Shown here one piece after another: positions 34,314-45,191 of a DNA stretch of 64,000 nucleotides (positions are counted from its first letter, which is position 1; the number at the start of each line of letters is the position of its first letter). The notes under the pieces are model-generated. The model did no database searches. It had not been told where the DNA came from and worked only from the letters and a program-made list of their open reading frames with translations. The stretch is from contig OX595994.1 of NCBI GenBank assembly GCA_951394045.1, positions 2,232,001 to 2,296,000 on the forward strand, in the 5' to 3' direction. Position numbers and translations under genes: made by a program. The stretch is from Nitzschia sp. DOCU1. Taxonomy: Eukaryota; Bacillariophyta; Bacillariophyceae; Bacillariales; Bacillariaceae.

Positions 34314-34480
34314 TAGTGAGGGTAGGCTGCCCTTCTGTAGAGTACGCAATATCCAGTTAGCTACCGGTAGTAGAGAATTGAAAAAAAACATTAGGGGCTC
34401 ATAGTTCTACTACGGTAGGTTTCGCTCTCTCTCCAAATCTACCTACTTTTAGGACGAACTACCCTGTTTACTTAACACAA

Positions 34481-34580
34481 TTCTTGCCAAGCGCTTAACA
34501 GACCATTCGGCCATCCTTGCCAAGAACACATAGGGTTCTTGCCAAGTACTTATCAACACGGCCAGATTCTTGCCAGGAAG
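34481..34580. repeat. Left subterminal TTGCCAA-type motif cluster
   Basis: Four close copies of TTCTTGCCAAG or ATCCTTGCCAAG occur within 100 bp, at about 34481, 34514, 34536 and 34566. The same motif clusters at the opposite edge of the element. Such subterminal repeats are candidate recombinase binding sites. Confidence 0.6.
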
Positions 34581-34764
34581 CACTTATGGAATATTTCTTT
34601 TTTCCTACCCTGAAATCTTGTTGTGTGTTGCCGGCAGCTCCACAAGACTGCCTCATTCACTACCCATCAACCCAGCACCAACAATACCAAGCTACATTTG
34701 CACACAATACCATTTCACAAGAAAGCCTCCCTACCTTTCTCACCTCTCTTGTTTCGTTTCCCTC

Positions 34765-37116
34765 ATGGCACGCAGCCGTTGCCAGCACAACAACCATGGA
34801 GCCATTCAAAGGCAAAGACAGCATTCTTCCAGCCAATTCAAATGGTCAACAGAATGGCGTAGCCCCCATCTGGTCATGTTTCTATCCCATGTAAAGGACG
34901 GTATCACAGCTGCCATGTCAAGCCACGGGCTTCAGCTTTCCCCGACTGATGCTGCATGGCTCCAGGACCATCAGGGTCATTTCATGAGTTTCCTACCTTG
35001 GACCACCAGGGAAGTCCAAGATGCATATTCTTCCTATCTACGCCAGCAGCAGCTTCCCCGGTCTGAGGACAGCAAGGCTGCTTTCATCAACCATTACATG
35101 TTGTCCAAGCACACCATCATCGACAGGTCCCCACGCATTGCCGCCAGTAAAGCTGACAGCTATCACTCCAACTGTGAGAATTTCCTTAGAAAATTTTGGT
35201 TTTTCTTGGCATTTGTGGGTGACTACACCAGCATGATTCTTCTTTTAAGGCACCCCCCAGGCAACGGACTCAGTCCCAGCATGTCAGTAAGGTCAATTCA
35301 TGCATTTGTGAACCATAAATTCCTTCCACAAGGCAGTCCCCTTCCTGATTTGCACAACAATACTGTCCTCGACATTGATGGAAATCCCATCACATGCGAA
35401 GGGACGATCAAGGCCCAGGAATGGCTGAAGACTTTCTATGCTTCTATTGTGCAAGTTCACCGGAACAATCAACAAGACGGGCCCTTTGTCCCCCAGTGTC
35501 TCCCATGCCTAGCATCCAAGCCCACCGGATGTCAACATCATGCCCCCATTTGCCAGTGGATGAATAGAGGGAACCCATGCAACCACACTGCAATCCACGA
35601 CCAGAAAGATTGGCTCAGGAAGGAAAGCATCCGCCGGCAGTACAAGAGCCATTCCAAATCACCCTTTCTACCATCTGATCTCAAGAACATCCAACATTAC
35701 ATGATGCTTGGCAATTTTGACATCACCAATCTGAGATTCTTCACTCTTCTGTTATGTTCCATTGAATGTGCTCTCCGCTTTGATGGTATGGCTGAGGCTA
35801 CTGTTGATCATTTGGAGCGCAACAGCTCTCTCTGGAAAGTGACCAATGGAGTCATTCGGCACCTTTGCCAATCTGTGAAGGAAAAGAAAGATGCTGTATT
35901 CTTTCAGTACATGCATGTCTTCAGAGACAGCCACCCAAAACTTTGTTTCTTGAGGCACTTACTTGTTTTGGTTCACTGTACTGAAAGGTATTCTGGTTAC
36001 CTCTTTGGGGAAACACCAGAGGAACCACTCAACTATGGCGGGTTCTCAAGATGGCTCATTGCACGTGAGGAAGAATGTGAGCATGAGCATCTGGTTGACT
36101 GGGGCCCCCACTCTGCCAGGAGGACCTTCTATCTACTAGGAGTCCTTGGTGGTGCTACTCTTCCCTGCTTGATGCGCAACGCACGCCATGTGGACGAGGC
36201 TACTGCCAAGAAGTACTGGGCTGACTTTATGGTTCTATCTCAAGAGATTCGTGCCGATCCTTCCCTGCTAGAGAAGCAAAGTATATGGGGCTTCACAGAA
36301 AAACTCCTTCACCAAGGTGGCCAAGACATGGAAAGGCTGCTTCACCAACAAGACCATCGCCAGATAGTTTCATCCCTTGAAGAACTATCCAAACACTTTG
36401 TTGAGAGATCACTGGGTGTCAATGCATCTTCTGCCATCTACCGCAACCCCAAACGGCTTCTAGAGATTGCCTACACCAAGGACTTCACAAGCCTCAACCC
36501 ACTTTCCCTTCTGGAAAGTCATATTCAAGCACTACCGGAGCAGTACAGTGCCAGCATCCTGCCACTATATACCTCAGCACTGAACTATGCAGTACAAATG
36601 GCCCGGCAGCAGCAGCAACAACAACAGCAGCACCAGCAAGGTCATCTTCACTCGGCACTTCCACTGGTAGCCCACCACAGCAATCGGGTTCCACAACCAC
36701 CCCACCCCAACTCTATATTCGAGAGTCTAAAGTCTGGGTCAGAAGAATTTCAAGCACTAACTACATTTTCTCCCATTTGCCCCCCACGGCCTGCCCCGCG
36801 GTACAAGATTCAATCTCCTCTTGGTCGACTCCTTCGGAACTCAACCCCCCAGAATCAAGTGAGGCACATCTCAAATTTTCTCTATCATGTACTATCTGCA
36901 GGTGAAATGGAGTTTGGTGACACCGCCAACAACAACCTTCATGAAGTATTCCTACAGATGGCACCCAGGTTCAGGAATGACAGGGCTGTTCTAGCACCTC
37001 TCAGAGTAGTATGTCGCTGCTTGATTAAATGCCATGCTTGCTCTGTCGAAGCATTCATAGCATCCCATCCAAACTTTGACTACAAGAGCTATACATGTAC
37101 TAGATGTATAGACTAA
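34765..37116 (+). CDS. Tyrosine recombinase (Crypton-like integrase)
   Basis: The frame is open from 34570 but the first in-frame ATG is 34765, giving 783 residues. Numbered from that ATG, the catalytic set is Arg338 (in ALRFDGM), His449-x-x-Arg452 (in HSARR), His475 (in ARHVDE) and Tyr484 (in AKKYW). The spacings H-3-R, R-23-H and H-9-Y equal those of XerD-type recombinases as I know them, so the fold assignment is strong. A Cys/His-rich segment (about residues 245-275: QCLPC, GCQHH, ICQW) precedes the catalytic domain and may bind zinc. A Gln-rich stretch follows at about residues 610-625. No transposase DDE motif is present. It should cut and rejoin DNA at element ends. The closest eukaryotic class known to me is Crypton, though a GCR1-type DNA-binding domain was not recognised. 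The true start could lie at a nearby ATG or in an unseen upstream exon. Confidence 0.78.
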   Translation: MARSRCQHNNHGAIQRQRQHSSSQFKWSTEWRSPHLVMFLSHVKDGITAAMSSHGLQLSPTDAAWLQDHQGHFMSFLPWTTREVQDAYSSYLRQQQLPRSEDSKAAFINHYMLSKHTIIDRSPRIAASKADSYHSNCENFLRKFWFFLAFVGDYTSMILLLRHPPGNGLSPSMSVRSIHAFVNHKFLPQGSPLPDLHNNTVLDIDGNPITCEGTIKAQEWLKTFYASIVQVHRNNQQDGPFVPQCLPCLASKPTGCQHHAPICQWMNRGNPCNHTAIHDQKDWLRKESIRRQYKSHSKSPFLPSDLKNIQHYMMLGNFDITNLRFFTLLLCSIECALRFDGMAEATVDHLERNSSLWKVTNGVIRHLCQSVKEKKDAVFFQYMHVFRDSHPKLCFLRHLLVLVHCTERYSGYLFGETPEEPLNYGGFSRWLIAREEECEHEHLVDWGPHSARRTFYLLGVLGGATLPCLMRNARHVDEATAKKYWADFMVLSQEIRADPSLLEKQSIWGFTEKLLHQGGQDMERLLHQQDHRQIVSSLEELSKHFVERSLGVNASSAIYRNPKRLLEIAYTKDFTSLNPLSLLESHIQALPEQYSASILPLYTSALNYAVQMARQQQQQQQQHQQGHLHSALPLVAHHSNRVPQPPHPNSIFESLKSGSEEFQALTTFSPICPPRPAPRYKIQSPLGRLLRNSTPQNQVRHISNFLYHVLSAGEMEFGDTANNNLHEVFLQMAPRFRNDRAVLAPLRVVCRCLIKCHACSVEAFIASHPNFDYKSYTCTRCID

Positions 37117-37261
37117 ACTAATGTATCTAATCTAAACTAATCTTGCTTCTATAATAGATCTACTAAGCGGCAAGGACACCATCCAAACTATGACTACAAA
37201 AGCTATACATGTACTAGATGTATAGACTAACCTAATGTATCTAATCTAATCTTGCTTCTAT

Positions 37262-38370
37262 AATAGATCTACTAAGCGGCAAGGACACACACCCCAAGCC
37301 TTCCCTCACTAACCTGGAGGCAACCATGCAAAAACATTGTGAAATTTTGTAGTGTAGCCAGCGCCCAGGGCCAAAAAGGAAGCCAACAAGCTGTAGAGTG
37401 GGTGTTGACTCGAAAATTTCAAGGACCCCATGAGAAAAGATCCTCTAATCCAAAAACGACACATACCCCAAGCCTTTCCTTACTAACCTGGAGGCAACCA
37501 TGCAAAAACATTGTGAAATTTTGGAGTATAGCCAATGCCAGGGCCAAAAAGGAAGCCAACAAGTGGTAGAGTGCGTGTTGACTCATCTGCACTTGAAAAT
37601 TTCAAGGACCCCATGAGAAAAGATCCTCTAATCCAAAAACGACACATACCCCAAGCCTTTCCTTACTAACCTGGAGGCAACCATGCAAAAACATTGTGAA
37701 ATTTTGGAGTATAGCCAATGCCAGGGCCAAAAAGGTAGCCAACAAGCGGTAGAGTGCGTGTTGACTCGTCAGCACTTGAAAATTTCAAGGACCCCATGAG
37801 AAAAGATCCTCTAATCCAAAAACGAGACATACCCCAAGTCTTCCCTTACTAACTTGGAGGCAACCATGCAAAAACATTGTGAAATTTTGGAGTGTAGCCA
37901 GCGCCCAGGGCCAAAAAGGAAGCCAACAAGCGGTAGAGTGCGTGTTGACTCGTCAGCACTTGAAAATTACAAGGACCCCATGGGAAAAGATCCTCTAATC
38001 CAAAAACGACACATACCCCAAGTCTTCCCTTACTAACTTGGAGGCAACCATGCAAAAACATTGTGAAATTTTGGAGTATAGCCAATGCCAGGGCCAAAAA
38101 GGTAGCCAACAAGCGGTAGAGTGCGTGTTGACTCGTCAGCACTTGAAAATTACAAGGACCCCATGGGAAAAGATCCTCTAATCCAAAAACGACACATACC
38201 CCAAGCCTTCCCTTACCAACCTGGAGGCAACCATGCAAAAACATTGTGAAATTTTGGAGTATAGCCAAAGCCAGGGCCAAAAAGGAAGCCAACAAGCGGT
38301 AGTAGTGGGTATTAGTGCCAGTATGCAGGTGTGCGCCCCGAGAAATTTTCAAGATCCCATGGCAGAAGAT
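37262..38370. repeat. 183-bp tandem repeat, six copies, inside the element
   Basis: The landmark GGAGGCAACCATGCAAAAAC recurs at 37316, 37490, 37673, 37856, 38040 and 38223, giving periods of 174, 183, 183, 184 and 183 bp. Each unit ends with GATCCTCTAATCCAAAAACG or a close variant. The copies are non-coding and differ by scattered substitutions. They lie just downstream of the recombinase stop codon. Confidence 0.92.
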
Positions 38371-38423
38371 CTACTAAGCCCCTGGGACGCAAGCCTAGTG
38401 GGTTATTGTCATCACAATACCCA

Positions 38424-38810
38424 AATGCCTGCTAAAATGCGTAGAGTCTACAGGAAATTAAAGTACTGCAGAAAGGAGTATTGTTCACACAATACCCAAA
38501 ATGCGTAGAGTCTACAGGGAATTAAAGTACTGCAGCAACGAGTATTGTCCACACAATATCCAACCTGCATCAGCTAATATTGTAACAACAATATCCAACC
38601 TGCGTGAGCTAATATTGTAACAACAATATCCAACCTGCGCCAGCTAATATTGTAACAACAATATCCAAATGCCTGCTAAAATGCGTAGAGTCTACAGGAA
38701 ATTAAAATACTGCAGAAAGGAGTATTGTTCACACAATACCCAAAATGCGTAGAGTCTACAGGGAATTAAAGTACTGCAGCAACGAGTATTGTCCACACAA
38801 TATCCAACCT
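38424..38810. repeat. Hairpin-rich repeat block, left
   Basis: A roughly 140-bp sequence containing CCTGCTAAAATGCGTAGAG, CTACAGG.AATTAAAGTACTG and the hairpin GTATTGTTCACACAATAC occurs at about 38424-38565 and again at about 38668-38809. Between them are three copies of a 35-bp unit with CAATATCCAACCTGCG and GCTAATATTGTAACAA. A related block in inverted orientation occurs at 41356-41680 on the other side of the dioxygenase genes. Confidence 0.85.
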
Positions 38811-38971
38811 TACTGAGGTGGTGGAGGATACTATTGTAGAAGTAACACCGACTGCCTCCTAAAATGTGTAGGGACGACAAGACATAAGCTCTGCAGCATC
38901 TAATCTAATCTAATCTCCTTGCTTTTATAATTTGACTCTTATGTAAACCTTATTTTATGTTATGTACTAAC

Positions 38972-40147
38972 CTAGGTGGCCTTACGTTTCTTGTTGCTTT
39001 CTTGTTTCTTGCTGCCTCCCTTTTTCTCCATCTTTTTATAATCTTTCTCTGCCATCCCTGAATGTTTGAGCTTTTCAAACATGTGGCCTGTTCCCATTGC
39101 AACCATCTTGGCAAGGGTTTCTTTGGCAAATCCTTTTTTCTGCTTCGAAGGTGGATGATGCAACCATTCACGTCGGTAGAATGCCTCATCGGCCAACTCT
39201 GCCAACCTGTCGACCTCCTTGTTGAAGTATTCAAAGAAAACCTCATGGTGTTCTGTTAGTCTAACATGCTGAATTGGCATGTAAAGAGTGCTGCTACTAT
39301 CCAAGCCGATAGTCCCTTGCTTCCTGGTGTGGTAGTTAGAATCAATGTAGGCATGGATCCCTACCCTCCAGTCTTGTCCACCCCTAGTTGTCATGCCACC
39401 GTGGGGGAGCTCTCCAGAAAAGAGAAGGCACTGTTGGTAGCTGACAGTGACCACATGCCTTGCAGGATGGTTGATGTAAATGGACCTGCTTTTGTTTTCT
39501 TCCAATGGGAAGATAACGGCTGCAGGGAGGAATCTTCCATCTAGGTCCCTGTTGCTTTTAAAGTCTTGATCGCCAATAGCGTCAGCGTGGACCCTCTGGT
39601 GGATAGGTTCGAGGCCACTGACTCTGACCTCATTACCACCCATGATCAAGGAAACATCCGCCAGGTACAAATGACAGTTCTGATTGCTAACATAGCAATC
39701 GTCTATCTTCTTCTTGTTGCTTTCCTCCCTGTACAGTAACTTGGAGTACGCCGCTTTATCGAAGAAGAATGGCGCAAACTCAGACACAAGATGGTAGGTA
39801 CTTGCCAGGTAGTACCCCAATCGAGCCAGTGCGGTCAAGTGTTTCTTCTTGTCAAGCTCATACTCAGAGGAATGAGTAGGAAGAGGCATGTAGACGCGAT
39901 CATCAAAGTCATAGTCGTCATATCCGAAGTCGATGTGTAGGCCTGGGGGGAGGACGTTCCATGTCCCAGGAGCGTGGGCCGGCAACGGCAAGTTTGCCTC
40001 TTTAAACTCCCTAACGATTGCTTTCGTGGTCTCGGCGTCTAGGTCTTGGTCAAAGAACGGCTTGGTGACGGGCACAAAGGAATTGATTTTGTCAATTGCA
40101 GCCGCATATGGAGATGGAAGCCCAGTCCTTGAAAGAAAAGTTGCCAT
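38972..40147 (-). CDS. 2-oxoglutarate/Fe(II) dioxygenase-like protein of the mobile element
   Basis: The frame is open up to 40411, but the first ATG in it is at 40147, giving 391 residues. Numbered from there, His187-x-Asp189 (VHADAIG), His249 (GELPHGG) and Arg261 (DWRVGIH) fit the HxD...H...R signature of 2OG-Fe(II) oxygenases: facial triad plus the 2-oxoglutarate-binding Arg twelve residues after the distal His. A strongly basic Lys-rich tail (about 360-391) could contact nucleic acid. Element-borne 2OG oxygenases that oxidise 5-methyl-pyrimidines (TET/JBP) are known with fungal KDZ transposons; whether this one acts on DNA is inference. Overlap with the 412-codon frame upstream suggests the two are one gene joined by a small intron or +1 frameshift. 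It is convergent with the recombinase. Confidence 0.6.
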   Translation of the reverse strand: MATFLSRTGLPSPYAAAIDKINSFVPVTKPFFDQDLDAETTKAIVREFKEANLPLPAHAPGTWNVLPPGLHIDFGYDDYDFDDRVYMPLPTHSSEYELDKKKHLTALARLGYYLASTYHLVSEFAPFFFDKAAYSKLLYREESNKKKIDDCYVSNQNCHLYLADVSLIMGGNEVRVSGLEPIHQRVHADAIGDQDFKSNRDLDGRFLPAAVIFPLEENKSRSIYINHPARHVVTVSYQQCLLFSGELPHGGMTTRGGQDWRVGIHAYIDSNYHTRKQGTIGLDSSSTLYMPIQHVRLTEHHEVFFEYFNKEVDRLAELADEAFYRREWLHHPPSKQKKGFAKETLAKMVAMGTGHMFEKLKHSGMAEKDYKKMEKKGGSKKQESNKKRKAT

Positions 40148-41330
40148 AATTGGGCGATCTAAAAACAGCTCCCCAGAGAAGAACAATGACCTTGTCTGCC
40201 ACTCCAGCTGCACCCTTGATGAGACAGACAGCTTGGGCAAACCGGGTCCAACATCCAGAACATTTCCCACAACCCTTGTAGGGTTTATCAGGATTAATCT
40301 GATCACAGAATGCTGTGAAAGCACTGAGCCACTGGGACCGAACACTGGTGATTTGATGTTGTTTATCCAGTTCAGAGGATAGCTTCCGTAGGCTGGCAAG
40401 TTCACCTTCAACTTGGGTTTTCTTGGCCTCTGTCGCCATATTCATTTCATATTGATACCAATCCTGCGATTGGTATATTTTGGTACCAGACGGCCACTGG
40501 TTGGGATCCAGTTCTTTTGTAACATCTTCTAGAGTGCGATTGTAACAGTTTGATCCAAATTTTTTCTCCCTTTCCAGCATTTTCTCAGGGCTAAAGTCGC
40601 CTGTCGCCTGCAGTGCAAGGTATCTTTTGGTCTGGGGGGAAGCCTCTTCATGGATGTAGACCCTGACCATTTTCCCAATCTGGAAGCAATGCTGGCTAGG
40701 AGCAATGGTCTGCTGGTTGTTGGTTGTCAGGGCGTGTATTTTGTTGTTCGCAGGTCTTGGGTATTCCCAGAGATTCTTGGCCGGTGCTTGCTTTTTTGGA
40801 GCATGTTTCTGGTGATAAACAGTTGGGTTGGCAATTGAGCCGTCCAATGTTAGCTGCCGTAGTAGTTGTTGCCTGGATTTGGAGATACTCTCCTTTTCAG
40901 GACTGTTCTTAGGTTCTTGCCTGGCTGTGACTGTGGGCACTGGAGGTGCTGTAGAGGGCGGGGATTTGGGAGGTGGTGGTCCAACAAGAAGAACAGGATT
41001 GGGGTCTGGTGCTGGTTTGAGACGATTGCTTCTCCGAAACTTTTGGTACACAGAGGATAGGAGCTGCAACCAAATTTTATGAGCAGTTTGGTTGGGTATA
41101 GTTCCTCCTCTGATGTTTGTTGGCTGGAGATCGAGGCCCCATGACTGAAATACCTTCCATATTTCAATCAAGAGGGATTGCTTTTTCACTCGCCTTTCCA
41201 TATGGGAAGACAGGCGAGCAGTCTTAGCCAGCTCATTCAAAAGATCGGTTCTATTAAGGAGAGCTTCAAAGGCTTCGAGGGTTGGGGACCCCTTCCTCAG
41301 TGCTAGGGTCGTCGGTGGGTGGATCAACAT
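40092..41330 (-). CDS. Coiled-coil and Cys-cluster protein, probably the N-terminal part of the dioxygenase gene
   Basis: This is a 412-codon frame from the ATG at 41330. The N-terminal half is helical then Pro-rich (about residues 115-140). A segment with HCFQIGKMVRVYIHE sits near residues 215-235, and a Lys/Glu-rich helix runs at about 305-335. A CGKCSGCW cluster near residue 352 could bind zinc. After that cluster the frame gives no recognisable sequence, while the -strand frame of the dioxygenase becomes conserved-looking. The transition needs a shift of one nucleotide or an intron of length 3n+1. One candidate is a 55-nt GTGCAG...TTTTTAG segment in this interval. I therefore suspect a single polypeptide spanning both. 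The upstream flank carries the inverted hairpin repeats at 41356-41680. Confidence 0.55.
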   Translation of the reverse strand: MLIHPPTTLALRKGSPTLEAFEALLNRTDLLNELAKTARLSSHMERRVKKQSLLIEIWKVFQSWGLDLQPTNIRGGTIPNQTAHKIWLQLLSSVYQKFRRSNRLKPAPDPNPVLLVGPPPPKSPPSTAPPVPTVTARQEPKNSPEKESISKSRQQLLRQLTLDGSIANPTVYHQKHAPKKQAPAKNLWEYPRPANNKIHALTTNNQQTIAPSQHCFQIGKMVRVYIHEEASPQTKRYLALQATGDFSPEKMLEREKKFGSNCYNRTLEDVTKELDPNQWPSGTKIYQSQDWYQYEMNMATEAKKTQVEGELASLRKLSSELDKQHQITSVRSQWLSAFTAFCDQINPDKPYKGCGKCSGCWTRFAQAVCLIKGAAGVADKVIVLLWGAVFRSPNYGNFSFKDWASISICGCN

Positions 41331-41355
41331 GGTAAAAATGTGAGGGGAGTGTTGT

Positions 41356-41680
41356 TGTTACAATACCATCGATTTTGGTTGTCCACAAGAAATTGAGAAA
41401 TTCCAGGGGGCTGTTAAAGTACCGGCCCTACAGGTTCTACGTATTTTAGAAGGCATGATAACATTGTGCATACAATATTGTGCGAAATTCCAAGGGACTG
41501 TTAATGTACCGAGCCTACAGGTTCTACGTATTTTAGCAGGCATGATAATATTGTGCATACAATATTGTTGGAAACGGCAAGTGTATTGTGCTTACAATAT
41601 TGTTGGAAAGGGGAAGCATATTGTGCTTACAATATCAATGGAAATCAAGTGGATATTGTGTGTACAATATTGTTAAAGGG
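41356..41680. repeat. Hairpin-rich repeat block, right (inverted relative to the left block)
   Basis: Two copies of a roughly 110-bp unit contain CCTACAGGTTCTACGTATTT followed by AGGCATGATAA and GTGCATACAATATTGT. Read on the - strand they match the CCTGCTAAAAT.CGTAGA motif of the block at 38424-38810. Several ATTGT...ACAAT hairpins follow to 41676. The pair of inverted blocks brackets the dioxygenase genes. Confidence 0.8.
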
Positions 41681-41766
41681 GGGTGGGGATTTGTCGATTA
41701 ACCATCACTTCCAAAGGGGGGGGTCTTGTAAGGGTCTTGTAACACGACTTCTTGGAAATTTGGGGG

Positions 41767-41830
41767 TTGGCAAAGTTTTGGCAAGGATGCCGACGATTCT
41801 TGCCAAACTGAGGGGGTCTGGCAAGATTGC
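41767..41830. repeat. Right subterminal TTGCCAA-type motif cluster
   Basis: TTGGCAAAG, TTGGCAAGG, TTCTTGCCAA and CTGGCAAGATT lie within 65 bp in both orientations. They mirror the left cluster at 34481-34580. On the - strand the run CGGCATCCTTGCCAA resembles GGCCATCCTTGCCAA of the left edge. Confidence 0.58.
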
Positions 41831-41833
41831 CTG

Positions 41834-42278
41834 GTACATTTCTACATACGTGGGTTCCGTCTACCACTGGTAGGCGACGATGATAAGATCCCTTCAGACG
41901 TGCAATGCCAAACGTGTGTATGCGATGGTACGGCTGCGAACGACGACATGATATAGACGTCCGCCGGCCAGGCACGCTGGTCCGACTGCCGTTCGGCAGA
42001 GTCATCGAGTCAACTGAGTCGATCAGTCATGAACTCGATCCTCGCTCCGTCTTTACGTGTAAAAATTGAAAAAGTAGTAAAGATGTAAAAAATAGGGATA
42101 TCTCGCTGACGAGAGGGAGATGATGACAGCCGGCAAACGAGTACTTTTACACTTCATTGATATAAAATCCACTTCCTTTGTGCCGCGTCACAAAACAACC
42201 GGCCTCTTTGTCACATGCGATACATGCCGTAATCTTCCCATTGCCGAGCTGGGATAGTATTTTTAACTGCCTAGCGCA
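41834..42278. promoter_or_regulatory. Upstream region of the hydrolase-GTPase fusion gene
   Basis: About 445 bp between the element edge and the ATG at 42279. No gene is seen. A near-palindrome, TCGAGTCAACTGAGTCGA, lies near 42005. The region presumably contains the promoter of the downstream gene, but no defined element is assigned. Confidence 0.4.
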
Positions 42279-45191
42279 ATGCCCAGCTGCCCGTCAGGCG
42301 AGTCGGGGAAGGGACAGTCGTCCAGGAGTAATCAGCGCCGCCGACGACATAAAGGAACCTCCTACACAGATGCAACCAGTAAATCGGCAAAGAAGATTCT
42401 CCTCTTACACGGTAGTCGTCAAACTGGTGGTATCTTGTTAGGGAGACTTGAGAGACTCAAGAAGAGGCTGAGAACTGAACTTCAGATCGAGATCATTGCC
42501 CCTGACGCTCCATTTCCCGTTGAAGACAATTCGCTGCTTCTGACATGGTGGAGTCGACGCGAAAATGAATATCAGGGACTTGAAAAGACGTTAGAATTGC
42601 TCAAAATGACCCCATGGAATGACGAGAATATCATCGGCATAATGGGGTTTTCTCAGGGTGCTCGACTGACTCACTTGTTGGCGCGGCTTCGCGAAGAGGA
42701 TCAATCATGGTACCCGAATCTACAGTTTGTAATCCTAGTCGCTGGATATCATGCACCCACCCCCGACGGTTTGGAACTACGCCAGAGTACCTCGTCTCTT
42801 GGTGTGAGGTCTTTGCACGTTTGGGGAGTAGCCGATCCTCTCATTACACCCTCTCAGTCCGAAAAACTGCTCGTAGAATACAAAAATCCTCACACATACG
42901 TGCACGAAGGGAAACATTTCGTCCCTACCAATGCTCCGGGCGTTCAACAGTTTATTCAATTTATCCAAGAATCAATCGCAAAGGACGTCTCGAAGGTGCT
43001 GACAGATCCTACCTCGTCCGAAGTTCCGCTTGGCTCGGCCACTCCAAAATCTGACCATCGGGCGCCAGTCGAGACTGCGTCTTTATCACCAATAATCCCA
43101 GACGAAGAAACCGCTATCCTTCAGCAAGATGAAATTGAAGCACTCCAAGCAATCTTTCCGGACGAAATACTAATTCAATCAGGCATGCATAGCATGAGCG
43201 ATGGTACAATTGTGTTCGATTTTCCAATCGTCTATCATATGAAGCTTTTACCCACAGACGAGATCACCTCAGACACAAGGTGGCCCATCCACCCTTTGAC
43301 GCTGGAAATTCGCTATCCATACAACTATCCTATTGAGGCCGTTCCGTTTTTTTCATTACTCCACGATAACAACAATTTCGAGTTCCCGAATTTTAGAGTG
43401 GAAAAGGTCATTTCCATTTTGACAGATACATCAGAGATGGAACTGGGACAAGCTAGCGTGCTATCGTCGATCTATGCCTTGAAAGAGTATTTGGATGCTC
43501 CACCAGCGGACGACGAGGAACGAATACAAAACCCCATGTTGGCCACTCTCCCGTCTGCAGGATACAAAGCCTTTAATGAGGAAGAGGCTTCCGCCGATTC
43601 TGGCGACGCACACTCCGGCCTAATTCCCCTGTCGTCTCCAGAAAGAATAAAAAAGTGTAACTTGGAAGGCCTTGAAATAGCAGAGCGAATCCTGAAAGCT
43701 GCCTCTCCTCGAAACGCAACTTCTTCCTTGTCGCCCAGGGCGAGCAAAAAGAGTGGAGGGTCTTCGTGGACCTATGTCATTGGGTTGGTAGGCAAACCGT
43801 CGGCCGGAAAGAGTACCTTTTTCAATGCCGCGACAGCTTTTGCAAGGCAACGCAGCAATGCAGGGGGTGATAGTTCGAGAGATGCAGGGGGTGGCGATTC
43901 AGCGTGTGGAGGTGCCAGCATGGCGGCACATCCTTTTACCACCATTGATCCCAACCTTGGCTTTAGTATGGTCCCAGCACCGCGTGGTTCTTGCCCTGAA
44001 GATTCTACGCCGAACCCAGCGGCATATGCCTCCACTCACGGACGGTCGCCCGATGGGAGACGGTTCCTTCCGGTCCTTCTGAAGGATGTTGCTGGCTTGA
44101 TTCCAGGCAGTTATTTGGGGCGGGGGCGTGGAAACATGTTTCTAAATGATCTCACCGATGCAACGGTCCTGATTCATGTAGTCGATGCTAGTGGAACCGC
44201 GGATGCCCAAGGCAACAAAACCCTTGCGGACAATGATCAGTCGGAATTGACAAATCCTCTGGACGATCTTTCATGGATACGGAACGAGCTAGTAGAATGG
44301 GTGTATTCCAACGTGGCCGCCAAATGGGATGCTATTCGTCGAAAGGGCCGGGCCAAACTTGCGGGTATGTTCAGCGGGTACGGACAGCGTGAATCTGAAG
44401 TTCAGATGATGCTAGTGGCGCTAGAGCACTTTCTCGACGACCAGTATCAGCGCGATCATGCTTTGGATAATTTAGCGGAGTGGGATCAAGGGGATGTCCA
44501 CCGGCTTGTTAGTTGCTTTCTGGGTGTGCGCTTTCCGATGGCACTGGCTTTGAACAAGTGCGACCTAGATACTGGTTTGGTCTTCGCAAGGGAAATCCAG
44601 ACGGCATTGCCTATCCACGGAGCCCATGTTGGGACTCCCATGGCGGCGAAAGAAGAAATGTTGTTTGTGCGCAAGCAGATAAGAAAAGAACGCGTTGTGG
44701 ATACCAAGCACTCGTTGTCACCGCCGATAAATGTTTGGAACTGCCTTACGTCAAGCTTGATATTACGAGAACCCGTACTGGTCTTCCCAGTTTCCGACTT
44801 CACTACCTATGCCTCACTTTCTGGTTTGAGTAGGGTAGCTGCAGAAAGTCCATCTCTCCCCTCATTGGGGATGATTGGAGTTATTCTAGCTGCTGGTGGC
44901 AGCGTTCCAACATGTTGGGATGCTTCCCAGAAAACGTACGTGGTTCCAAGCAAGGAACAGGCGACAAACCAGAAACTTCGAGACGTCCTTGTGATGAAGC
45001 CTGGTTCTACAGTTGAAGACCTGTTCTTCGCGCTGAAAAGACTCGGTGGTCTCAGTGGCGAATTCGTACGGGCCGAAGCCGCTGGTGAAATCGGCGAAAA
45101 ACCCAAACAAGTTCCCAAACTCGAGTTGCTGGGTCGAAGAAACCGCATCATTCGAATCATGTCAAACAAGAGGGCAGTGTGGCAGAATTAG
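42279..45191 (+). CDS. FSH1 serine hydrolase - RWD - Obg/YchF-type GTPase fusion
   Basis: This is an uninterrupted 970-residue frame. Residues about 38-235 match the FSH1 family of alpha/beta serine hydrolases: LLLHG, nucleophile Ser125 in GFSQGA, Asp186 in GVADPL and His213 in GKHFVP. Residues about 278-405 look like an RWD domain (DEIEALQAIFPDE, hydrophobic strands, then YPYNYP). Residues about 500-960 are an Obg-like GTPase: G1 GKPSAGKST (505-513), PFTTIDPN, G3 DVAGL (603-607), G4 NKCD (759-762), and a TGS-like end (MKPGSTVEDLF). The GTPase resembles the YchF/Ygr210 branch, which acts in translation-related processes. RWD is a protein-interaction fold also found in GCN2. All three parts keep their key residues, so the fusion appears functional. 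Confidence 0.88.
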   Translation: MPSCPSGESGKGQSSRSNQRRRRHKGTSYTDATSKSAKKILLLHGSRQTGGILLGRLERLKKRLRTELQIEIIAPDAPFPVEDNSLLLTWWSRRENEYQGLEKTLELLKMTPWNDENIIGIMGFSQGARLTHLLARLREEDQSWYPNLQFVILVAGYHAPTPDGLELRQSTSSLGVRSLHVWGVADPLITPSQSEKLLVEYKNPHTYVHEGKHFVPTNAPGVQQFIQFIQESIAKDVSKVLTDPTSSEVPLGSATPKSDHRAPVETASLSPIIPDEETAILQQDEIEALQAIFPDEILIQSGMHSMSDGTIVFDFPIVYHMKLLPTDEITSDTRWPIHPLTLEIRYPYNYPIEAVPFFSLLHDNNNFEFPNFRVEKVISILTDTSEMELGQASVLSSIYALKEYLDAPPADDEERIQNPMLATLPSAGYKAFNEEEASADSGDAHSGLIPLSSPERIKKCNLEGLEIAERILKAASPRNATSSLSPRASKKSGGSSWTYVIGLVGKPSAGKSTFFNAATAFARQRSNAGGDSSRDAGGGDSACGGASMAAHPFTTIDPNLGFSMVPAPRGSCPEDSTPNPAAYASTHGRSPDGRRFLPVLLKDVAGLIPGSYLGRGRGNMFLNDLTDATVLIHVVDASGTADAQGNKTLADNDQSELTNPLDDLSWIRNELVEWVYSNVAAKWDAIRRKGRAKLAGMFSGYGQRESEVQMMLVALEHFLDDQYQRDHALDNLAEWDQGDVHRLVSCFLGVRFPMALALNKCDLDTGLVFAREIQTALPIHGAHVGTPMAAKEEMLFVRKQIRKERVVDTKHSLSPPINVWNCLTSSLILREPVLVFPVSDFTTYASLSGLSRVAAESPSLPSLGMIGVILAAGGSVPTCWDASQKTYVVPSKEQATNQKLRDVLVMKPGSTVEDLFFALKRLGGLSGEFVRAEAAGEIGEKPKQVPKLELLGRRNRIIRIMSNKRAVWQN

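Follow-up and report, generated by a model that had tools for sequence, protein, structure and literature searches.

Does a mobile element in the genome of the diatom Nitzschia sp. DOCU1 carry the means to remove or alter methylated cytosines in its own DNA, and so to escape silencing by its host? The question is raised by a locus within a stretch of 64,000 nucleotides (GCA_951394045.1, contig OX595994.1, positions 2,232,001 to 2,296,000 of the forward strand), referred to here as the window. An original prediction, made from the letters of this stretch, had described a mobile element that pairs a tyrosine recombinase (YR) with a protein resembling 2-oxoglutarate (2OG)–Fe(II) dioxygenases, and had suggested a role against host methylation. 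We followed up that suggestion in the 52-Mb assembly of 63 contigs, in which the window is C10:2232001–2296000. In keeping with a diatom, this assembly has 18 matching rows for the silicon transporter family, of which the best reaches E 8e-181. Two features went beyond the prediction: the copy in the window has an internal deletion, and the element has a third gene, which encodes a DNA glycosylase. We favour the reading, to which we assign a probability of about 0.5, that this is a Crypton-like element with an oxidise-and-excise pair of enzymes that acts on the methylated cytosines of the element itself, removing or altering them, so that it escapes silencing. What we observed is a mobile element, a YR motif, an HhH-GPD domain, linkage of the genes, purifying selection, CpG decay and palindrome arrays; the anti-methylation role gains weight because of the glycosylase gene, the CpG decay and the arrays.

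A mobile element with a tyrosine recombinase

DNA alignment of the copies revealed sharp common ends, beyond which the flanks are unrelated, at window positions 34415–41873 (C10:2266415–2273873; plus strand, as set by the YR gene), C4:2007435–2016798 and C3:204104–208458, while C14:518589–519271 is a left-end fragment only. A genome-wide search with the element ends found four left ends and three right ends. The predicted span, 34476–41833, had marked the same locus with slightly different ends. The C4 copy measures 9.36 kb and has the gene order YR (plus strand), dioxygenase-like gene (minus strand, 627 codons open) and third gene (minus strand, 585 codons open).

The YR gene of the window (34570–37116, plus strand) is open throughout. 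Its frame gives 848 amino acids from a TTG, with the first in-frame ATG at 34765, and holds R403, HxxR (514–517), H540 and Y549, as had been predicted. The spacing HxxR-N22-H-N8-Y is that of XerD, and is identical in two other YR families of the genome that are 31–37% identical to the window protein. A protein search with the recombinase gave 18 rows, made up of the C4 copy (97% amino acid identity), partial copies on C3 and C14, and remoter families. The protein had no match in PHROG or PDB and nothing better than E 0.19 in Pfam; its sole NCBIfam row was an unrelated regulator (E 0.0028) matching outside the catalytic part. Because the motif is invariant and the copies testify to mobility, we identify the gene as a tyrosine recombinase of a Crypton-like element.

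A DNA glycosylase gene truncated in the window

Relative to the C4 copy, the window copy lacks 1.6 kb, with the junction at 40108–40110. This deletion took the HhH-GPD part of the third gene and the first part of the dioxygenase gene, leaving in the window an open reading frame (ORF) at 40092–41330 (minus strand) that encodes the N-terminal 407 residues of the glycosylase; the full form lies at C4:2014569–2016296. The C3 copy has kept glycosylase residues 1–498 and lost most of the other two genes. An intron joining the two minus-strand ORFs of the window was ruled out, because C4 has two separate open genes and the window arrangement is a deletion.

In a BLASTP comparison, the C4 glycosylase matched an endonuclease III-like gene of the host, which encodes a clear HhH-GPD protein, at E 2e-10, with Lys454 and Asp473 aligned to its Lys and Asp. 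A profile built from four related sequences hit NTHL1 (endonuclease III-like protein 1; E 5.1e-11) and endonuclease III (E 2.9e-8). Residues K454 and D473 (C4 numbering), which we take to be the catalytic residues of an HhH-GPD glycosylase, do not vary among four glycosylase sequences. By these comparisons the third gene encodes an HhH-GPD DNA glycosylase of the endonuclease III kind. Four invariant cysteines (C339, C351, C354 and C357 in the C4 protein) stand just ahead of the HhH-GPD domain and may form a metal-binding part.

Three relatives of the glycosylase were present in a protein collection, among the candidates scored. P0003, encoded on an 8.8-kb contig, and P0004 are named 'endonuclease III' by their source. 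The remaining one, P0002, is 99.5% identical to the 407-residue remnant of the window and carries the HhH-GPD part as well, so that an undeleted form of the window subfamily exists.

The dioxygenase-like gene

The putative Fe(II)/2OG dioxygenase gene lies at 38972–40110 on the minus strand of the window, its 5′ side cut by the deletion, and has a longer form at C4:2012331–2014211. The mechanical ORF runs from 38972 to 40411, and its part beyond about 40110 is the glycosylase gene read out of frame. The motif codons in the window (minus strand) are H at 39587–39589, D at 39581–39583, the distal H at 39401–39403 and R at 39383–39385. The HxD…H…R pattern had been noted at the outset in this convergent gene, and all four residues proved to be invariant in four aligned sequences, namely those of C4, the window, P0001 (source JGI; 32–36% identical) and a relative on C1 and C13 (27–31% identical). 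All share an EPIHQxxHxD block, an H about 60 residues later and then the R. With the H-x-D…H metal triad of the Fe(II)/2OG dioxygenase superfamily present and invariant in all four, we regard an Fe(II)/2OG oxygenase as the likely but unproven product.

The N-terminal part of the C4 protein has a stretch containing Cys and His before the HxD core, partly shared with P0001, that might bind metal. Matches to Pox_T4_N (E 0.045–0.18), DUF6885 (0.027–0.064) and PDB 1o6d (0.09–0.29) were taken as noise.

Linkage and selection

Parts of the YR and dioxygenase genes occur together in all three copies that have a right end (C10, C4 and C3), in agreement with the proposal that one mobile element links them. 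A genome search with the window dioxygenase frame gave seven rows. Five are in these copies, although for two of them the match is confined to the part of the window ORF that is read out of frame; the other two are in a duplicate on C1 and C13. There, at C1:4436162–4437244 and C13:130657–131739, a relative of 361 amino acids with the same HxD…H block lies within a duplicated stretch that is 99.98% identical over at least 5.8 kb, to the edge of the fetched DNA. We rejected the idea that this solo gene belongs to the element: its identity is 31%, retroelement genes are close to it, and a YR is absent from its surroundings. An oxygenase gene at fixed syntenic loci apart from the recombinase was a case that the original prediction had held against itself; the close copies are all inside the element, and only this distant relative stands without a recombinase. 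A search with that relative gave 25 rows, including those on C11 and C42 described next; another 19 rows, not all of them below E 0.001, match its C-terminal tail alone.

On C11, and in a duplicate on C42, dioxygenase fragments (46 residues, E ∼2e-4) lie 3.2 kb from glycosylase fragments on the same strand; between the two fragments of the C11 relic there is a stretch (30 residues, E 4e-5) resembling the Ulp1-like ORF described below. We take the C11 relic as modest evidence that the dioxygenase and glycosylase genes have probably travelled together for some time. No relative was found in viral contigs, for which the queries were P0003, P0001 and the alignments of the glycosylase, the YR and the dioxygenase, in prokaryote contigs scanned with the dioxygenase core, in phages scanned with the window dioxygenase, or in plasmids scanned with P0003. 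A profile search with the dioxygenase alignment also returned nothing, a weak null since its own row P0001 was missed too.

Between C10 and C4, the ratio of nonsynonymous to synonymous substitution rates (dN/dS) was 0.185 for the YR (847 codons), 0.125 for the dioxygenase (380 codons) and 0.295 for the N-terminal part of the glycosylase (406 codons; 0.308 over the first 400). When CpG transitions and codons with multiple differences were removed (4, 2 and 30 codons respectively), the ratios were 0.185, 0.099 and 0.224. Fisher tests of synonymous against nonsynonymous change gave p < 1e-9 for each gene; all three genes therefore show purifying selection. The C4 and C3 glycosylase sequences differ at only nine sites in all, too few to judge the ratio of 0.46. 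Synonymous divergence (dS) between C10 and C4 was 0.32 in the glycosylase part and 0.08 and 0.125 in the rest, and the copies look like mosaics because the glycosylase part is the more diverged.

These observations bear on a rival scheme, in which the glycosylase alone demethylates by excising 5-methylcytosine (5mC) directly, like plant ROS1/DEMETER, and the HxD protein hydroxylates, for example, a histone, another protein or RNA. ROS1 and DEMETER have the HhH-GPD fold, the Lys and Asp are kept in the element's enzyme, and the identity of the dioxygenase is drawn from motifs only. However, the two enzyme genes stand side by side, both are under purifying selection and fragments of both are present in the C11 relic. 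Moreover, Nth and ROS1 glycosylases have a C-terminal [4Fe–4S] cluster of four Cys, which is absent here, where the C4 protein has a single Cys (C479) beyond D473. We consider demethylation by the glycosylase alone rather unlikely.

CpG decay in the element

The window and C4 copies had CpG observed/expected ratios of 0.41 and 0.45, compared with 0.95 in each of two stretches of host DNA of the window. All 11 host ORFs checked lay between 0.86 and 1.13, and parts of the element between 0.35 and 0.71. TpG and CpA are raised in the element copies, and C/T differences between C10 and C4 fall on 43 of 225 CpG cytosines against 106 of 2280 others (odds 4.8, p 3e-13). In six 1-kb bins from C11:2273501, the relic gave ratios of 0.80, 0.26, 0.29, 0.78, 0.14 and 0.09, with the dioxygenase fragment in bin one and the glycosylase fragment in bin five. 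On the simplest reading, the element has undergone CpG methylation. CpG depletion is not found in every element, a Gypsy-like stretch having a ratio of 1.27.

The C5 DNA methyltransferase family has five clear matches in the host genome (seven rows; two are neighbouring pieces on C6, and the one on C10 is short, with E 2.4e-4). This family includes the tRNA methyltransferase DNMT2, and not every match need act on DNA. In diatoms CG is the preferred context of methylation, and transposable elements of Phaeodactylum tricornutum are highly methylated (PMC9861306); in that species, overexpression of young elements accompanies the loss of DNMT5a (PMC9998398).

Palindrome and tandem arrays

The palindrome ATTGT-N4-ACAAT has 13 occurrences in the window copy, against 0.06 expected (500 first-order Markov resamplings of the same copy), and 18 and 15 occurrences in C4 and C3 respectively; these sites are not independent, some being tandem duplicates and the copies sharing descent. 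Outside the element, the rest of the window (56.5 kb) has a single occurrence, and the flanking DNA fetched for C4 and C3 has none. Eight of the window palindromes lie within 35-bp and 64-bp repeats at 38405–38801, between the tandem array of the YR gene and the dioxygenase gene, and five lie at 41463–41668, upstream of the glycosylase gene near the right end; sites are often 35 bp apart. A further cluster upstream of the dioxygenase gene is present in C4 only and is deleted in the window and C3 copies.

Among 32 distinct palindrome surroundings there are 14 different spacers, and when spacers of 2–5 were allowed every in-element site had a spacer of 4. This remained so with one mismatch and spacers of 3–5 (14 sites in C10 and 22 in C4, all N4). 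The palindrome extends to TATTGT-N4-ACAATA, in which the first T is less strict. Since the arms are conserved and the spacers vary freely, a dimeric DNA-binding protein is a better fit than an RNA hairpin, which would predict changes on both sides.

Directly 3′ of the YR gene is an array of 183-bp tandem repeats (37284–38307 in the window; 7.6 units at C4:2010189–2011652). All three YR families of the genome have such tandem units, of 181–183 bp and two to eight in number, in the same position; those of the other families were read at L005:60–803, L037:2920–3400 and L038:1–614. Among the BLASTN matches listed, none joined the arrays of this element, of a six-copy sister family and of a family on C5 and C6. 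The period of 181–183 bp is near the nucleosome repeat length. The 3′ end of the window YR gene is itself tandemly duplicated over 114 bp (37065–37288).

Ends, insertion sites and sister families

Terminal direct repeats of 5–6 bp bound all three two-ended copies: GGTAGG in C10 (34414–34419 on the left and 41869–41874 on the right of the window copy), AGTAG in C4 and AGTAG in C3. The base preceding GTAG is the same at both ends within each copy, and C10 differs in it from C4 and C3. On the host side, CTAC-N4-GTAG can be read in each of the three, the CTAC of the window being at 34407–34410. Site-selective insertion by a YR could leave an end structure of this kind.

The subterminal regions hold TTGCCA or TGGCAA four times within 200 bases of the left end and four times within 150 bases of the right end in all three copies, against 31 occurrences of the two together in the 56.5 kb of the window outside the element. 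In the window they are four TTGCCA (mostly TTCTTGCCAA) at 34484–34575, and three TGGCAA with one TTGCCA at 41768–41824; the same four at each end are found in C4 and C3. These repeats could be recombinase-binding sites.

No long inverted terminal repeat joins the two ends among the matches listed (25 of 41 inverted pairs). Pfam detected no DDE transposase or reverse transcriptase in the three main C4 ORFs, to which the scan was confined, the other frames being of at most 223 amino acids and mostly antisense or in repeats. Adjoining the insertion, at 42279–45191 of the window, is a single host ORF that joins FSH1 hydrolase, RWD and GTPase domains.

One sister YR family occupies six places, at C8:913649–925340 and at similar loci on C1 (two), C3, C4 and C7, and the four places compared are 99.5–99.8% identical over 2.86 kb. 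Beside its YR gene there recur an ORF of 1292 amino acids and one of 1033 amino acids that matches Ulp1/C48 peptidases (E 1.5e-4). It is possibly a CryptonS-like element with recent activity and a length above 11 kb. Genome searches with the glycosylase and the dioxygenase proteins gave no match at its six places.

The sister family helps to judge two further explanations of the enzyme pair. The ordinary role of endonuclease III relatives is repair, the removal of oxidised pyrimidines, and the pair might serve transposition or repair by clearing damaged or modified bases from a circular intermediate or from the integration site, with no part in silencing. The proposal that Cryptons move as circles, made in the account of these elements in PMC3212892, would suit such a function; against it, the sister family, with six copies, has other genes instead of the pair, and we think a role confined to transposition or repair quite improbable. 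The pair might also be cargo picked up by the element and useful to the host or to no one, like that of large YR elements known to carry cargo, and the Ulp1-like ORF of the sister family does indicate that gene content varies among these elements. But purifying selection between element copies, the element-specific palindromes shared at both enzyme genes and the remains of this pair in an older relic all speak against passive cargo, which we regard as distinctly improbable.

Comparison with known systems

Known from oomycetes and a diatom, CryptonS elements are described by Kojima and Jurka (2011, PMC3212892) as having C48 peptidase genes and terminal repeats of 5–6 bp. The present element resembles them in its YR, its terminal direct repeats of 5–6 bp, the lack of any long inverted terminal repeat seen, its stramenopile host and its low copy number; a C48 (Ulp1) peptidase ORF, which some CryptonS also have, lies close to the YR of the sister family. 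It differs in its termini, which are GTAGG…GTAG here and TATGG in the majority, though not all, of CryptonS (PMC3212892), and in carrying a putative dioxygenase and a DNA glycosylase. We call the element Crypton-like for its resemblance to this group.

The fungal counterparts are DDE-type DNA transposons and Helitrons that encode TET/JBP dioxygenases (Kojima 2025, PMC12730594). Their transposon-borne oxygenase is proposed to lift methylation silencing (PMC12730594), as the putative oxygenase might here; by contrast, the present gene has no Tet_JBP match and its element is of the YR type. In the main text of PMC12730594, 'Crypton' and 'tyrosine recombinase' do not occur, and 'glycosylase' occurs a single time, in connection with the cellular TDG pathway. 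None of the titles listed from the open-licence literature, in which Repbase reports are not included, described a DNA glycosylase or an oxygenase in a YR transposon.

The anti-silencing protein of the plant Vandal elements is VANC, and we know of no VANC protein that is an oxygenase or a glycosylase. Oxidation followed by excision is the course of the TET–TDG pathway, in which TDG has a fold different from HhH-GPD, and direct excision by an HhH-GPD glycosylase is that of ROS1/DEMETER; both resemble what we propose, but are cellular pathways and not transposon-borne. Vandal elements, cited for self-anti-silencing in PMC12730594, offer a likeness of another kind, as the present element likewise repeats a motif of its own in its non-coding parts. 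The novelty lies in bringing together a recombinase element, an HhH-GPD glycosylase alongside a putative oxygenase, and an array of palindromes specific to the element.

A proposed model for oxidation and excision by the element

The proposed sequence of events is as follows. The tyrosine recombinase would excise the element and insert it at short CTAC-N4-GTAG sites, leaving direct repeats of 5–6 bp. The palindrome arrays around the enzyme genes would be docking sites for an element protein. The putative dioxygenase would oxidise the methyl group of methylated cytosines in the element's DNA, the glycosylase would excise the modified base, and base-excision repair by the host would restore cytosine, so that the element would escape methylation silencing. 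We infer the dioxygenase fold, the substrates of the enzymes, the excision and insertion by the YR, the targeting of the element's own DNA and the anti-silencing effect. The fullest version of the model, a complete self-directed active demethylation pathway in which oxygenase and glycosylase are recruited through the palindrome arrays of one YR element, we put forward tentatively and with more doubt than belief.

Several observations weigh against this interpretation. The window copy has no glycosylase domain, and only the C4 copy, one of three, has all three genes open. The CpG decay occurred despite the enzyme cassette, so that any protection is at best partial; read as methylation, it makes the element a target of silencing whose own enzymes have not always kept it unmethylated. 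Nor is the depletion special to the element, a sister YR gene that lacks the cassette having a CpG ratio of 0.56 and its adjoining stretch one of 0.78. HhH-GPD is the sole Pfam match of the C4 glycosylase and falls below the cut-off (E 0.066; 0.0039–0.059 for its relatives), and the matches to NCBIfam nth (C4 glycosylase E 0.0014, P0003 2.3e-5) are both far below the curated cut-off. Oxidised pyrimidines are the usual substrate of such endonuclease III relatives, and activity of the element's enzyme on 5mC derivatives is hypothetical. The fold of the YR is unconfirmed, a structure model from a four-row alignment having a mean predicted local distance difference test score (pLDDT) of 39.9.

The remaining points concern the dioxygenase. 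Its invariant Arg stands at +6 from the distal His in all four sequences, unusually close, as typical 2OG enzymes have their basic residue +9 to +17 after that His. The protein had no match beyond noise in Pfam, PHROGs, NCBIfam or PDB, and an AlphaFold2 model from the four-row alignment (pLDDT 32.6) was too poor to judge a double-stranded beta-helix. Kinship with TET/JBP enzymes found no support: Tet_JBP (PF12851) matched neither the gene nor, at E ≤ 1, any part of the six-frame genome. The proposal of a putative 2OG–Fe(II) oxygenase is drawn from its conserved HxD…H motif, and a role against host methylation is plausible in the light of glycosylase, CpG decay and palindromes. Lack of any family or structure match, together with an uninformative model, is what would be expected if the motif were a coincidence in a protein of another fold. 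Yet H-x-D, H and R are invariant down to 27–32% identity, and they lie within the EPIHQxxHxD block and the H that follows it, so we believe such a coincidence to be unlikely.

Transposons and their hosts contend over DNA methylation, and the fungal TET/JBP transposons show one half of a demethylation route. If our interpretation is correct, the Nitzschia element would hold both halves, an oxidising enzyme and an excising glycosylase, the first such case in a recombinase element in the literature searched, and would provide, in compact natural form, a system for demethylation directed by sequence. With it one can test directly whether methylation in diatoms restrains young elements.

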